Below are positions 11,438-46,044 of a stretch of 64,000 nucleotides of DNA, piece after piece (the stretch's first letter is position 1; each line of letters opens with the position of its first letter). Source of the DNA: Sphingobacteriales bacterium (lineage in GTDB: Bacteria; Bacteroidota; Bacteroidia; Chitinophagales; Chitinophagaceae); NCBI GenBank assembly GCA_016200915.1, contig JACQDV010000032.1:25084-89083 (forward strand), read 5' to 3'. A program made the translations under genes and the position numbers. The notes beneath the pieces were generated by a model. It was not told the DNA's origin. It saw nothing but the letters and a program-made list of their open reading frames with translations, and made no database searches.

Positions 11438-12130
11438 ATGAAGTTTTTTTTATTGCAGGTAGTGGCCGACTCATTACAAAAAGCAGGTGAATCCGCCGCC
11501 GGAACAGGCAAGGAGTTAAGCATGCTGGATTTGCTGATGAAGGGCGGCTGGATCATGATCCCTCTCTTATTACTCAGTCTCATTGCCGTGTATGTGTTTG
11601 TAGAAAGATGGATGGCTATTAAAAAAGCCTCCCAGATCGATGAGAATTTTATGAACATCATCCGGGATCATATTGTGACCGGTAATGTAACTGCCGCCCG
11701 TTCGCTGGCCAAGAACACCAATAACCCGGTGGCCCGTATTATTGATAAAGGACTGCAGCGTATTGGTAAACCCATTGAAGCTATTGAAAAAAGCATGGAG
11801 AATGTGGGCAAATTAGAAGTATATAAATTAGAAAAGAATACAGGAGCTTTATCTGTTATCAGCGGTATTGCGCCGATGTTTGGATTCCTGGGTACCATTG
11901 TAGGGATGGTGCAGTTGTTTATGAAGATCAATATTACTAATGAATATAACCTGGCCATCATCTCCGGTGGTATCTATACCAAGATGGTGACCAGTGCGGT
12001 GGGATTGATCATTGGTTTGATGGCCTATGTAGCTTACAATTATCTCAACTCACAGATCAATAAAACCGTGAACAAGATGGAAAGTGCCAGCGCCGAGTTT
12101 ATTGATACCCTGTACCAGCCGACGCACTAG
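11438..12130 (+). CDS. exbB: MotA/TolQ/ExbB proton channel family protein
   Basis: A 230-residue inner-membrane protein with three membrane helices: about 33-53 (GGWIMIPLLLLSLIAVYVF), about 140-163 (SGIAPMFGFLGTIVGMVQLF) and about 175-200 (TSAVGLIIGLMAYVAYNYL). The conserved SGIAPMFGFLGTVxGM core identifies the ExbB/TolQ family. With ExbD it would use the proton motive force to energise TonB-dependent outer-membrane transport, or Tol function. The exbD gene follows after 220 bases that contain a tandem repeat; no tonB gene is next to the pair. Confidence 0.88.
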   Translation: MKFFLLQVVADSLQKAGESAAGTGKELSMLDLLMKGGWIMIPLLLLSLIAVYVFVERWMAIKKASQIDENFMNIIRDHIVTGNVTAARSLAKNTNNPVARIIDKGLQRIGKPIEAIEKSMENVGKLEVYKLEKNTGALSVISGIAPMFGFLGTIVGMVQLFMKINITNEYNLAIISGGIYTKMVTSAVGLIIGLMAYVAYNYLNSQINKTVNKMESASAEFIDTLYQPTH

Positions 12131-12164
12131 AAGAAAGTTGACAGTTGACAGTGGGCAGTTGACA

Positions 12165-12270
12165 GGAAGAATGAATAAGAGTTGACCGATGACCGTTGAC
12201 AGTTGACAGGAAGAATGAATAAGAGTTGACCGATGACCGTTGGCCGTTGACCGGAAGAATGAATGAATAA
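12165..12270. repeat. Tandem repeat, 44-bp unit, about 2.4 copies
   Basis: Two consecutive 44-base units (12165-12208 and 12209-12252) beginning GGAAGAATGAATAAGAGTTG are nearly identical, followed by a partial third. The unit is built from GTTGACAG/GTTGACCG motifs that also occur just upstream (12135-12164) and at 43078-43128. It lies between exbB and exbD and is not coding. Confidence 0.8.
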
Positions 12271-12350: not shown

Positions 12351-12749
12351 ATGAATTTCAGAAAACGATTAAAAGAGAAGCCGGAATTACATACCAGTGC
12401 ACTGAATGATATATTGTTCATTCTGCTGCTGTTCTTTTTAATTGTTTCTACCCTGGCCAATCCCAATATTGTAAAGGTGAATACACCCAAGGGGAAGAGT
12501 GACAGTAAGGCCAAACAAAGTATTGTAGTGTCTATTGATAATAAACATACTATTTACATAGGGCAAAAGCCGGTGCCTTTATTTGCCATTGACAGTTTGC
12601 TGAAAGAAGCAACTAAGAAGATGGGAATAGATACACCGGTAATTACTATTAATGCCGATACCTCTGCCATGTATGGCGAATTCTTTAAAGTGCTGAATGC
12701 TGCTAAAAAAGCCGGGGCCAAGGTTACGGCGAATGTTACGGCGAATTGA
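12351..12749 (+). CDS. exbD: ExbD/TolR biopolymer transport protein
   Basis: A 132-residue protein with a short cytoplasmic start, one membrane helix (about 20-42, DILFILLLFFLIVSTL) carrying the conserved Asp that takes part in proton transfer, and a periplasmic domain ending VLNAAKKAGAKV. This is the usual ExbD size. It pairs with exbB upstream. The last 62 codons and about 15 bases beyond the stop are repeated at 13676-13874 with roughly 95% identity, in the same orientation. Confidence 0.88.
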   Translation: MNFRKRLKEKPELHTSALNDILFILLLFFLIVSTLANPNIVKVNTPKGKSDSKAKQSIVVSIDNKHTIYIGQKPVPLFAIDSLLKEATKKMGIDTPVITINADTSAMYGEFFKVLNAAKKAGAKVTANVTAN

Positions 12750-12882
12750 GTTTTTTTCTTTGCTTTTATTGAACCAACTTATGCAACTTGCCGAAGTTTC
12801 TTTTCGGGAGTTAAATTGTAACATTGGAGCTGCAGCAATTGAACTCCTGATACCGGCATGTGGTTCGTCTGCAATTTTTTGG

Positions 12883-13071
12883 TCAGACTAAAACTTTTCT
12901 GTTGCGTTTGCCTGAAGTACGTTCTTTTGCAATAGTTTTTTTTATTGGCATTTTTCGCCCTGTTGCTTTGTAATAAGCAATTATTTCACTTATCCTTTTT
13001 CTCTCAGCTGCTGTCAAAGGTTTTGGGTCAACAAAAAAGTCAACTCCGGTAGGTTCTTTTATATAGCCCAT
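12883..13071 (-). CDS. Small basic protein, 62 aa, second gene of a two-gene cassette
   Basis: Not recognised as a named family. The N-terminal half reads GVDFFVDPKPLTAAERKRISEII and the C-terminal half is strongly basic (KKTIAKERTSGKRNRKVLV). It starts with ATG, 12 bases downstream of the larger gene on the same strand, so the two form an operon. Small acidic or basic partners in such pairs are often antitoxins, but the order (large gene first) and the sequence do not prove that here. The whole cassette lies between two copies of the exbD 3' end. Confidence 0.55.
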   Translation of the reverse strand: MGYIKEPTGVDFFVDPKPLTAAERKRISEIIAYYKATGRKMPIKKTIAKERTSGKRNRKVLV

Positions 13072-13083
13072 AATCTTTAAGTT

Positions 13084-13611
13084 TTAAGCAGGAAAATATT
13101 TTTTAATTAGTTTAAGTGCTTCCTGAGGGAAGATTATCATTTTTTGCCCGCCTATATGCGTCGCTCCCAAAGTTCTTTCATAATGTTCAATTAACTTCGT
13201 CTTGGATGTAAAAGAAATGAAACCCTGATAACCTTTGTCCCATGATATTTTACAGGTAAAGGCAAATAAATTACCCGGAACTCCTTCATAAAGTTTATTT
13301 CTGCCTAAATTAAAAGGAGCACTTTCAATCAGGTGTAAATAGAAGTGGTCATTGTAATCGCTAATACTCAAAAGCCCCTGAACAATATCAGGATTATTTC
13401 TTATTGTAAGTTTAAAAAGCTGCCTGTCGGTCAACTTAAATTCACCTGCCCAATTAAAAAGCCATCCGTTCTTTCTCGTCGTAACCTTTAAATCCGTTTT
13501 TGTTACGGGGTGAACATCGGTGGGAAAACTGTCGCCTGAAATAGTATTGATAATGCTATTTGTTAGCCTGTCAATCTCAATTCCTAAATGATATTTGCTG
13601 TGTTTTACCAC
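13084..13611 (-). CDS. Unknown protein, 175 aa, first gene of a two-gene cassette
   Basis: I do not firmly recognise it. The last 60 residues (FTCKISWDKGYQGFISF, then KTKLIEHYERTLGA and a hydrophobic strand) have the look of the end of a GNAT-type N-acetyltransferase, where a Lys-Gly-x-Gly strand is followed by a helix and a final Tyr-rich segment; the N-terminal half is unassigned. The start is GTG at 13611, and a good -7 box lies only 5 bases before it, which would make the message nearly leaderless. It is transcribed toward exbD, opposite to the flanking exbD copies. Confidence 0.6.
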   Translation of the reverse strand: MVKHSKYHLGIEIDRLTNSIINTISGDSFPTDVHPVTKTDLKVTTRKNGWLFNWAGEFKLTDRQLFKLTIRNNPDIVQGLLSISDYNDHFYLHLIESAPFNLGRNKLYEGVPGNLFAFTCKISWDKGYQGFISFTSKTKLIEHYERTLGATHIGGQKMIIFPQEALKLIKKYFPA

Positions 13612-13615
13612 CTTT

Positions 13616-13623
13616 CAAATATA
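13616..13623 (-). promoter_or_regulatory. -7 box TATATTTG of the cassette
   Basis: On the minus strand this is an exact TAnnTTTG match just ahead of the GTG start at 13611. It suggests that the cassette carries its own promoter and gives a transcript with almost no leader. Confidence 0.4.
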
Positions 13624-13675
13624 CGAAATGTGTCGTTATAAATCAGGCTTGATGCAGCAAAGAACAGGAGACAGG

Positions 13676-13874
13676 AAAAGCCGGTGCCTTTATTTGCTAT
13701 TGACAGTTTGCTGAAAGAAGCTACTAAGAAGATGGGAATAGATACACCGGTAATTACGATTAATGCCGATACGGCTGCCATGTATGGCGAATTCTTTAAA
13801 GTGCTGAATGCTGCTAAAAAAGCCGGGGCTAAGGTTGCGGCGAATGTTAGTGCGAATTGAGGTTTTTCTTTGCT
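13676..13874 (+). pseudogene. Second copy of the exbD 3' end (no start)
   Basis: The stretch matches 12565-12763 with about nine differences in the 185 coding bases, at a constant offset of 1111. Five of the nine changes are silent and the rest give mild replacements (Ser to Ala, Thr to Ala, Thr to Ser), as expected when both copies came from functional genes. Upstream the frame runs into a stop (13639-13641) without an ATG, so this copy is a headless fragment. Confidence 0.85.
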
Positions 13875-14364: not shown

Positions 14365-14464
14365 TTAGTAATAGCGAATTTATTTTCTTTCTCCGTAGTG
14401 TCTCCCTGGGAGCATTTTACATGGCCGGGGACACTTCGGCATCAGGGAACAATGGTACAATATT

Positions 14465-14989
14465 TCAACTAAAGTATTTCAATGCCGCAGGGTCGGCTGA
14501 GCCAGACCCTGAGGGGATAGTGAAGATTTCTGCAGAGAAAGGAACCTGATTATTTTTCTGATCTAATTTTAAATCCATAGCAGCTATTACTTGCCATTTA
14601 TTGTTTCTATAAATCCAGGTATCTGTCCACACACTTTTTGTACTTGTTGAATCAGAAAATTTTGTCCAGGTTTCTCCTCCCTGCGCAATGGCAGTAGTTC
14701 CGTAAAATTTTATTTTTATATTATAAGCTTCGGCAGTATATAAATGAGCAGCTTCCACAGCCTCCCGTATCAATGTTTGTTTATCGTATGTTTTGCCTTT
14801 TGAATTCATACCAATAAAATCGTCTGCCATTATCATCTTAATAGCTGATGTATCGCCAATGACAATTGCCTGTGCCCATGCTTTTTCCGATGTTGTTATG
14901 AAATTACCGGCTTCTGTATAATCAATCTTCTGTGAACAGGAGAAAGAGAACACAATTATAAAAAGTAATATGAGATTTTTCTTTGCCAT
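14465..14989 (-). CDS. DUF4440 / NTF2-like lipoprotein
   Basis: A 174-residue protein with a lipoprotein signal (FIIVFSFSCSQ, Cys at about 18) and a SnoaL/NTF2-like cone domain (about 32-145): AWAQAIVIGDTSAIKMIMADDF, then TDTWIYRNNKWQVIAAMD. Members of this fold are small-molecule binders or enzymes; no catalytic residue can be named. The last 28 residues after the domain have no family match and end in LKYFS; that end and its surroundings recur at 15373-15398, so the tail may come from a rearrangement. Confidence 0.75.
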   Translation of the reverse strand: MAKKNLILLFIIVFSFSCSQKIDYTEAGNFITTSEKAWAQAIVIGDTSAIKMIMADDFIGMNSKGKTYDKQTLIREAVEAAHLYTAEAYNIKIKFYGTTAIAQGGETWTKFSDSTSTKSVWTDTWIYRNNKWQVIAAMDLKLDQKNNQVPFSAEIFTIPSGSGSADPAALKYFS

Positions 14990-15533
14990 AATAATACTAT
15001 AAATGCAAATTAATGTTTTGTTGCTGATGCCGTGCTGTATCAGCCTTATAAATATTCTTTATTTGCGCAAAGCGGTGGTATTGTCGTAATGTTTAAATTC
15101 TTTCTGCAACTCAACCAAAAGGAGCATCACCAATATTACTTTAGCAGAGTTTACAGTAGCACACAGCTAAATCAGGGAACAAACCGAATTCGTGCTGTAT
15201 ATCGAATTCGGGGGCCTTTTCTTTGTAACTTTCTGTCGCCTGTCCCGCATAGTTGCGGGAGCCAAACAAAAGAAAGTTAAGCGGAGTGCTTGCATACAAG
15301 AGAATCAGCCATTACTTATACTTTCACAATTGTGGCATTATTTCGGCAGGTGAGGGCACCAGCCGATAAGTGCAATATTTCAACTAAAATATTTCAATAC
15401 ATCCCAACCCAAAAAGTTTTATCTTTTGATGATAGTTCCAATTGTATTCATGATCTTTTTGCAATAAGAGTTACAATCAACTCAAAAATAAGAGAAAATT
15501 TTTGCTCCCAATTAAGTTGGGCTGTAAACAAAA
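14990..15533. other. Gene-poor accessory stretch
   Basis: No gene is convincing here. Visible items are an inverted repeat CCGAATTCG...CGAATTCGG (15184-15211), a TCCCGCA-TAGT-TGCGGGA palindrome (15243-15260), and a 26-base repeat (15373-15398) differing at one base from 14458-14483 at the end of the DUF4440 gene. Short open frames on the plus strand have Cys/Ser-rich, unfamiliar translations and no start signals. Confidence 0.5.
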
Positions 15534-15707: not shown

Positions 15708-16046
15708 TCATTTTATTTTTTTGCGGGTAATTATTTTGCTGAGCAGGAAATGAAGAATCAATGCCATGACTGTCCAGTACACAGTAAAAACTATTGGCAA
15801 AAGAGGTGGAGGAGGATCAGGGTCCTGACCTAAAACCGTCAGTGGACCAATCATAATAAACTTAATGGGATATATAATGTGAGCCAGCATATTTTTCCAG
15901 GCCACAGGCGATCCCATTCCCGGGAACCACTCACCATTTACAGGCCAGCATTGCACTTTGGGTGCTAAAAGCGAATTAGTGATAAACTGAAATGCAAAAG
16001 CGGAGATGAGGAAGATAATAATGAATCTTGTTCTTGAAATCTTCAT
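15708..16046 (-). CDS. Small membrane protein, 112 aa
   Basis: Two or three hydrophobic segments (about 8-27, 50-72, 82-103) with a Pro-rich loop QDPDPPPPLLP. The N-terminus (MKISRTRFIIIFLISAFAF) is basic then hydrophobic. No family recognised. Orientation and an ATG start support a real gene, but there is no operon partner. Confidence 0.5.
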   Translation of the reverse strand: MKISRTRFIIIFLISAFAFQFITNSLLAPKVQCWPVNGEWFPGMGSPVAWKNMLAHIIYPIKFIMIGPLTVLGQDPDPPPPLLPIVFTVYWTVMALILHFLLSKIITRKKIK

Positions 16047-43128: not shown

Positions 43129-43272
43129 GGACATTTCAAATGTTCGTAATGAAAAGCTCTTTTATATTTCGATCAGCAGCCTTTTTATCCCCTCCACGGG
43201 AGGGGCAGTAGTGTTTAAAAATAAAAGACTGTTTAATAGGGGTGGGTTAGGATGTGGAAATTTGAAATACAC
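43129..43272 (+). repeat. Short non-coding element, family 1 (copy B)
   Basis: About 144 bp, ends GGACATTTCAAA and AAATTTGAAATACAC (inverted), central CCCCTCC-ACG-GGAGGGG hairpin and AGGGGTGGGT. Same layout as copy A at 8741. Confidence 0.75.
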
Positions 43273-45899: not shown

Positions 45900-46044
45900 G
45901 AGTATTTAAAATTTTTTGCATTGCAGTGCCTTTTTAAATTTTAATTAGCATTCGTTTCATCCCCTCCACGGAGGGGCCGTAGTGGTTTTAAAGTAAAAGA
46001 CTATTTAATAGGGGTGGGTCAGGATGCAAAAATTTGAGATATAC
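45900..46044 (+). repeat. Short non-coding element, family 1 (copy C)
   Basis: Begins 6 bases after the pafA stop. Right end AAAAATTTGAGATATAC, left end GAGTATTTAAAATTTT (degenerate), central CCCCTCC-ACG-GAGGGG and AGGGGTGGGTC. Confidence 0.7.

Follow-up and report, generated by a model that had tools for sequence, protein, structure and literature searches.

Among the named phenomena of mobile gene pairs, long target duplication, reported for the insertion of restriction-modification genes with long direct repeats (PMC3031569, excerpted text, citing Nobusato et al. 2000), appears to come closest to the case described here. Homology-facilitated illegitimate recombination with displaced ends has been described for the type VI effector-immunity arrays of Vibrio cholerae (PMC5361080, excerpted text). 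A locus comparable with both was analysed in a 64,000-nucleotide stretch from Sphingobacteriales bacterium (family Chitinophagaceae; assembly GCA_016200915.1, contig JACQDV010000032.1, positions 25,084 to 89,083), called the window below. In the window, two copies of the 3' end of exbD bracket a two-gene cassette, which encodes a 175-amino-acid (aa) protein with a predicted GNAT fold and a 62-aa partner. The cassette is judged to have somewhat better than an even chance of having been brought in by related-strain DNA through recombination in the shared exbD gene, that is, by homology-facilitated illegitimate recombination. As in long target duplication, in the form given in that excerpt, a short pair of selfish type without its own recombinase lies between long repeats of variable length, and a single repeat copy is found at empty sites. 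Unlike in that system, the two exbD copies have already diverged, and their differences are mainly silent, which suggests that one end is foreign and not copied locally; this silent divergence sets the case apart from plain local duplication, unless allele exchange followed. The locus shares with the Vibrio cholerae arrays, as excerpted, a conserved upstream anchor, added genes and an old 3' part that remains downstream. In those arrays the anchor is the effector locus, whereas here unrelated ordinary genes anchor one pair in many hosts.

The 192 nucleotides (nt) at the 3' end of exbD were repeated directly at 12565-12756 and 13676-13867, with 95% identity, no gaps and an offset of 1111 throughout, which confirmed a repeat described in an earlier note on this DNA. 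A gapped search extended the pair to 12565-12764 and 13676-13874 (200 nt, 94.5%, 308 bits), far above chance. Within the coding part, 176 of 185 bases were identical, and the 9 differing sites changed the amino acid in 3 codons. The earlier note had taken the first copy as the true gene end and the second as headless, and this was borne out: the first belonged to a complete 132-aa ExbD, and the second lacked the head and stayed in frame, open to its stop. The similarity ended abruptly at the inner junction (13675/13676). The exbD tail was present at these two places only in the source genome (4.5 Mb, 96 contigs), and a search of the window for direct repeats (50 bits or more, spacing below 8 kb) gave only three others. 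The two genes between the copies lay on the minus strand, as the note had stated, and neither open reading frame (ORF) matched Pfam, NCBIfam or PADLOC. Hence, no recombinase was recognised within the cassette, in agreement with the claim that it carried no integrase or transposase. Features of transposons or insertion sequences were absent, judged by the lack of family matches for the cassette ORFs and by the homology of 31 cassettes, which stopped near the genes. The features of the locus are collected in Table 1.

Table 1. Features around the duplicated exbD end, in positions of the window.
Feature	Position	Strand	Basis
MotA/ExbB-domain gene, upstream of exbD	11438-12130		
exbD, complete, 132 aa	12351-12749	+	PF02472, E 9.1e-22; DNA 93-94% identical in G173 and G100
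exbD end, copy 1, joined to the intact gene	12565-12764	+	repeat search
62-aa partner gene	12883-13071	-	ORF; no Pfam, NCBIfam or PADLOC match
175-aa predicted GNAT-fold protein, GTG start, first cassette gene	13084-13611	-	ORF, model, fold matches
Cassette start region as far as the inner junction, where the headless exbD end begins	13612-13675		sequence
Headless exbD end, copy 2	13676-13874	+	repeat searches
157-aa ORF without family match, plus DUF4440 gene, beyond copy 2			

The recurrence of the bracket was explored with a test that required direct repeats scoring 60 bits or more, with one copy on each side, near the pair. There were 171 unique cassette loci, 10 of which were left out because they had less than 150 nt before or less than 500 nt after the gene. 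Direct repeats hugged the pair in 37 of the remaining 161 loci, the window included. The corresponding rates were 0/122 for shifted positions, 2.5 kb away within these loci, 1/23 for HigB and 0/25 for DUF4440; each of the two control families had 30 loci before short ones and the DUF4440 gene of the window itself were omitted. A first form of the test, which allowed larger distances, gave 26/98 for the cassettes versus 3/113 for shifted positions, 1/23 for HigB and 0/25 for DUF4440. Brackets were found in 10/32 loci with at least 70% identity to the window protein, in 21/99 with 50-70% and in 6/30 with less than 50%. Five more distant relatives (L258-L262, 30-41% identity) stayed outside this count, and the wide test gave no repeat of 60 bits at any of them. 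The bracketing repeats measured 48-448 nt, and their copies differed by 3-26%. When 31 cassettes were compared pairwise, DNA homology set in within about 100 nt before the GNAT start and ran to about the partner end, and no common element ends were found among them. On inspection by eye, the bracketing repeat of L236 resembled part of an RHS-type gene, with three copies in the 5 kb read.

The earlier note had expected other genomes to carry the cassette between two gene ends. Indeed, at ten loci, the window among them, the repeat overlapped one end of an ORF that matched a family. It lay at the 3' end in exbD, a GH5 cellulase (L063), an M3 peptidase (L081), a TonB-dependent receptor (L091), polymerase IV (L112), murB (L026), uvrC (L225) and L093, whose GH9 match lay below the cut-off and whose ORF reached the contig end. 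It lay at the 5' end in an ABM-domain gene (L108) and in rarA (L307). Over these ten loci (419 codons), 57.5 differences fell on 274 silent sites and 27.5 on 980 replacement sites, with one stop, and the ratio of replacement to silent differences per site (pN/pS) was 0.134; a first count on eight loci had given 0.14. Both copies drifting freely was excluded (p 6e-19), and so was one copy drifting beside a conserved one (p 5e-9). Since the differences were mainly silent, most of the divergence appears to have accrued in working genes of separate lineages, which is how the earlier note had read the exbD copies.

This divergence bears directly on long target duplication, in which the cassette would have been inserted behind exbD together with a long duplication of its target, and the intact gene would later have been altered by allele exchange with other strains. 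The end structure matches that reported for restriction-modification genes in the excerpt of PMC3031569, the direct repeats vary in length as described above, and a single repeat copy was present at the empty sites (G100 and G173 for exbD, three sisters for murB and G159 for uvrC). However, the copies differed in all 37 brackets, mainly silently in the gene ends, and a leftover that had drifted since insertion would give a pN/pS of about 0.5 or more. Later allele exchange would thus be needed at most loci, and this explanation is judged unlikely. Short-read assemblies break at identical repeats of about 100 nt, so young cases with identical copies may be missing, and their absence alone is therefore not evidence.

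The empty sites were examined in relatives of the host. Both other genomes of the genus that were compared (G100, G173) had a single exbD end without the cassette, and the exbB and exbD stretches were 90-93% identical between them and the window. No relative of the 175-aa gene was found by tblastn in the 15-16 kb around exbD of either genome. Arrays of the type exbB-exbD-exbD are known, and the headless copy could be the decayed second exbD of such an ancestral array. This origin was disfavoured in the earlier note and is rejected here with a negligible residual chance, because both relatives carry one exbD; moreover, the 95% identity and the same pattern at murB, uvrC and other genes stand against it. 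Downstream of the exbD stop, the three genus genomes differed, and the alignment with G173 was picked up again at 15712, ahead of prmC (identified by TIGR03534 above its cut-off). Hence, the stretch behind exbD is variable. The segment 12750-15707, from the exbD stop to the gene before prmC, thus resembled a variable insertion spot.

Empty sites were also found for sister cassettes. For murB, one end and no cassette were present in three of four sisters (G024, G237, G121), the fourth having no murB match, and tblastn found no cassette relative at murB of these three. For uvrC, only G159 among the 13 other genomes of that genus aligned through the gene end; it had a single end without a cassette relative by tblastn. 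The displaced uvrC copy and 48 nt outside it matched the native end and flank of G159 over 201 nt (91.5%). The displaced murB copy was closer to all three sisters than the end of the intact gene (54, 47 and 48 versus 50, 44 and 41 of 60), and murB was the only gene with this order. At exbD, the two copies carry alleles found in different relatives. Copy 2 shared with G100 the two-base codon difference AGT at codon 130 and the sites 297 and 369, and copy 1 shared ACG at codon 130 with G173.

A sequence of events can be proposed for the favoured entry on related-strain DNA. The donor would have carried the cassette directly behind its exbD. The incoming strand would have paired with exbD of the recipient, with a crossover inside the gene, such that its reading frame stayed complete. 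The other end would then have been joined illegitimately inside the resident exbD, since no shared sequence would lie behind the cassette, and one exbD end would have been left as a headless piece. Selection would keep events that overlap the gene over events that delete it. An anchor on one side is observed: exbD runs unbroken from its head into copy 1, and ten gene-end loci have been found. The crossover, the donor and the direction of the exchange at exbD are what we infer from this layout. Alternatively, a circle with the cassette and one gene end may have entered by Campbell-type integration, through one crossover in that gene end. Such an event would yield the same structure, and the direct repeats could in turn release circles. 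Both copies should then be chimeric; by eye, however, the differences were scattered over the copies, and of the nine shown L091 alone had a clear jump. The first join of the cassette to the middle of a gene would still be illegitimate, and no circle was seen, though no search was aimed at one. The circle is considered unlikely.

Several observations weigh against the entry by homology-facilitated recombination. Copy 1 of exbD matched G100 and G173 at 172 and 173 of 185 positions, and copy 2 at 173 and 169; the two copies are thus about equally distant from the relatives, and the foreign copy is not told apart by identity. The sites 237, 312, 313 and 376 of copy 2 matched neither the relatives nor copy 1, and the uvrC copies tied against G159 (140/152 each). 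No donor strain with exbD, cassette and a different flank was found among the three genus genomes, that of the window included. In addition, such a repeat was missing from 124 of the 161 cassette loci, and of the 37 brackets 21 were assigned to neither kind (gene-end or inverted-end). Six of the ten gene-end cases are metagenome-assembled genomes (MAGs), the other four genomes are in 70-730 contigs, and only Mucilaginibacter arboris, of the array type, passed the 60-bit test among 15 isolate records. The comparison suggested in the earlier note, of which copy matches the empty-site allele, thus gave about equal distances at exbD and a tie at uvrC, and the displaced copy was the closer one at murB alone. 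As to its proposal that a resident gene end was replaced and left behind, the empty sites, the recurrence and the silent divergence support it, and the headless exbD copy was not identified as the resident one. The interpretation in that note is partly supported overall.

The share of MAGs could also suggest an assembly artefact, in which two strains were collapsed and a contig with the headless branch was joined to the cassette contig. In L070 and L116, the contig and the bracketing repeat start at the same base, which looks as if the assembly had been broken there. A branch contig, however, would begin with at least one assembly word that the other copy also has, and in 5/9 cases the copies already differed 2-15 nt from the inner junction. 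These first differences lie too close to the junction for a shared word, which makes the artefact unlikely; furthermore, the pattern recurred across independent assemblies and not at shifted positions. An artefact is thus regarded as highly improbable.

The 175-aa protein had 7,233 homologous clusters at 90% identity (E <= 0.001), and no Pfam domain was present among the 120 matches listed for them. Its relatives were found in 73/294 genomes of the family (E <= 0.001) and in 50/396 genomes of the order (E <= 1e-30), the own genome included in both counts. A second, broken relative lay in the own genome (L223, contig C19, 191873-192345), where the wide test gave a 46-bit distant repeat only. 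An AlphaFold2 model from 24 sequences had a GNAT fold with a mean predicted local distance difference test (pLDDT) score of 79.2, and residues 1-14 were below 50. The model had 134 matches in the PDB (E <= 0.001), including SpeG, TacT3, AtaT and KacT, with template-modelling (TM) scores of about 0.5-0.6; the match to TacT3 had an E value of 1.6e-5 and TM-scores of 0.56 and 0.60. The protein is therefore a predicted enzyme with a GNAT fold, and the family to which it belongs is very large and has no name. The 62-aa partner had 305 homologous clusters and was modelled as a single helix with unfolded arms (pLDDT 72.8).

The partner was recognised by its profile behind the 175-aa gene in 134/134 loci with at least 50% identity, compared with 0/93 and 0/124 control positions. 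In this identity group, the partner was kept beside every GNAT gene, whether open (121) or broken or short (15). Here the enzyme was thus lost with the partner kept and never the reverse, a pattern that would be expected of a toxin and its antidote. Hence, the pair probably consists of a toxin (the GNAT protein) and an antidote (the 62-aa protein), and this role would explain why the cassette persists between direct repeats through which it could be removed. Some points run counter to this assignment. A simple ORF pattern failed to find the partner in 8/136 of the nearer loci (intact in 128/136), and below 50% identity 15/28 open GNAT genes were without a partner recognised by the profile. The toxin role is one that we infer only, and the partner lies downstream of the GNAT gene. 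In known GNAT toxin pairs, the partner is not downstream, and the antitoxins carry a ribbon-helix-helix domain. The 62-aa protein had no Pfam match and its model was one helix, and therefore no ribbon-helix-helix domain was found in it. The pair resembles TacAT, AtaRT and KacAT in its predicted GNAT fold, with matches to TacT3, AtaT and KacT, and in being a two-gene module with a small partner. It differs from them in its downstream partner without a recognised DNA-binding domain, and its toxicity is a prediction. The gene pair was not named in the listed titles and abstract beginnings of papers on long target duplication, including that of restriction-modification genes, on homology-facilitated illegitimate recombination, on integrons in Bacteroidota and on GNAT toxin-antitoxin systems.

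Beyond what the earlier note had covered, integron-like arrays elsewhere in Bacteroidota carry the same gene pair as a cassette, and the pair thus travels in this form too. Inverted repeat ends beyond those of shuffles (at least one copy, p <= 0.015; 74 repeat copies tested) were found at six loci (L321, L142, L072, L129, L080 and L122), and L142 and L122 sit within repeat arrays. In three of five genomes tested, the bracketing repeat had matching repeats on a contig that encodes an integron-integrase-like recombinase (L142/L289, L080/L293 and L129/L291); no such match was found in L122/L290 or L078/L283. TIGR02249 was tried as a test for integrons and proved unspecific, with matches in 18/18 genomes and 14/14 controls, none above the cut-off. 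The link to arrays was therefore drawn from repeat similarity. The window copy differs from integron cassettes in that it is flanked by exbD coding sequence and not by inverted-end repeats (p 0.43 and 0.55 versus shuffles); it is not in an array, with two repeat copies in the genome only, and no integrase was recognised among the cassette ORFs. At five other gene ends, no single-strand fold exceeded that of shuffles that preserved base counts only.

The own genome (G000) encodes a recombinase of this kind (contig C85, L288:1113-2231; 372 aa), which scored 189.8 bits against NF040815, below the cut-off of 220. This enzyme and that of Mucilaginibacter arboris (L289) matched the XerA and integron-integrase models of NCBIfam, below cut-off. 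The tyrosine recombinases at L288, L289 (5183-6289), L290, L291, L292 and L293 had 345-397 aa and an extra N-terminal part. Four of these six contigs had dispersed direct repeats of about 100-200 nt with genes between them, 1-5 kb away; L292 had tandem repeats and L288 none. The recombinases are possibly an integron-like system of Bacteroidota. Such an enzyme, acting in trans, could have placed the cassette behind exbD, given that one is encoded in the same genome and that the repeats around the pair match those near such enzymes in three of five other genomes. The exbD repeat, however, is coding sequence without inverted ends, the 12 kb around the enzyme of G000 contained no direct repeats, and the genes that supply the gene-end brackets vary by locus, which leaves this route very unlikely.

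A wider proposal is made tentatively, as a possibility that falls short of an even chance: a recombinase-free pair of addiction type may use ordinary gene ends as attachment sites, at which it would install a foreign end and leave the old one, and may alternate with an integron-like cassette form. Small gene pairs often move without a visible recombinase, and here the traces of such movement, the leftover gene ends, are preserved. The excess of gene ends at one gene family, with almost none at controls, makes the route testable by strain comparison. Moreover, the case connects a large unnamed GNAT-like family with two forms of mobility and with a predicted role as toxin and antidote.

Some further features of the window were noted. 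Three tandem repeats of 44 nt (82-89%) lay between exbB and exbD at 12136-12267, and a further direct repeat of 114 nt (82%), spaced by 2.8 kb, was present at 43160-43272 and 45932-46044. A 29-nt repeat (93%) was found at 14455-14483 and 15370-15398; its first copy overlapped the DUF4440 gene (14465-14989, minus strand) at the 3' end and its second lay beyond the start of that gene, and it may be a small gene-end duplication. At 13616-13623, the sequence CAAATATA reads TATATTTG on the minus strand, 4 nt ahead of the GTG start of the 175-aa gene. We take TATATTTG to resemble the -7 box of Bacteroidota, and with such a motif 4 nt away the real start of the gene, or a leaderless message, may need checking.
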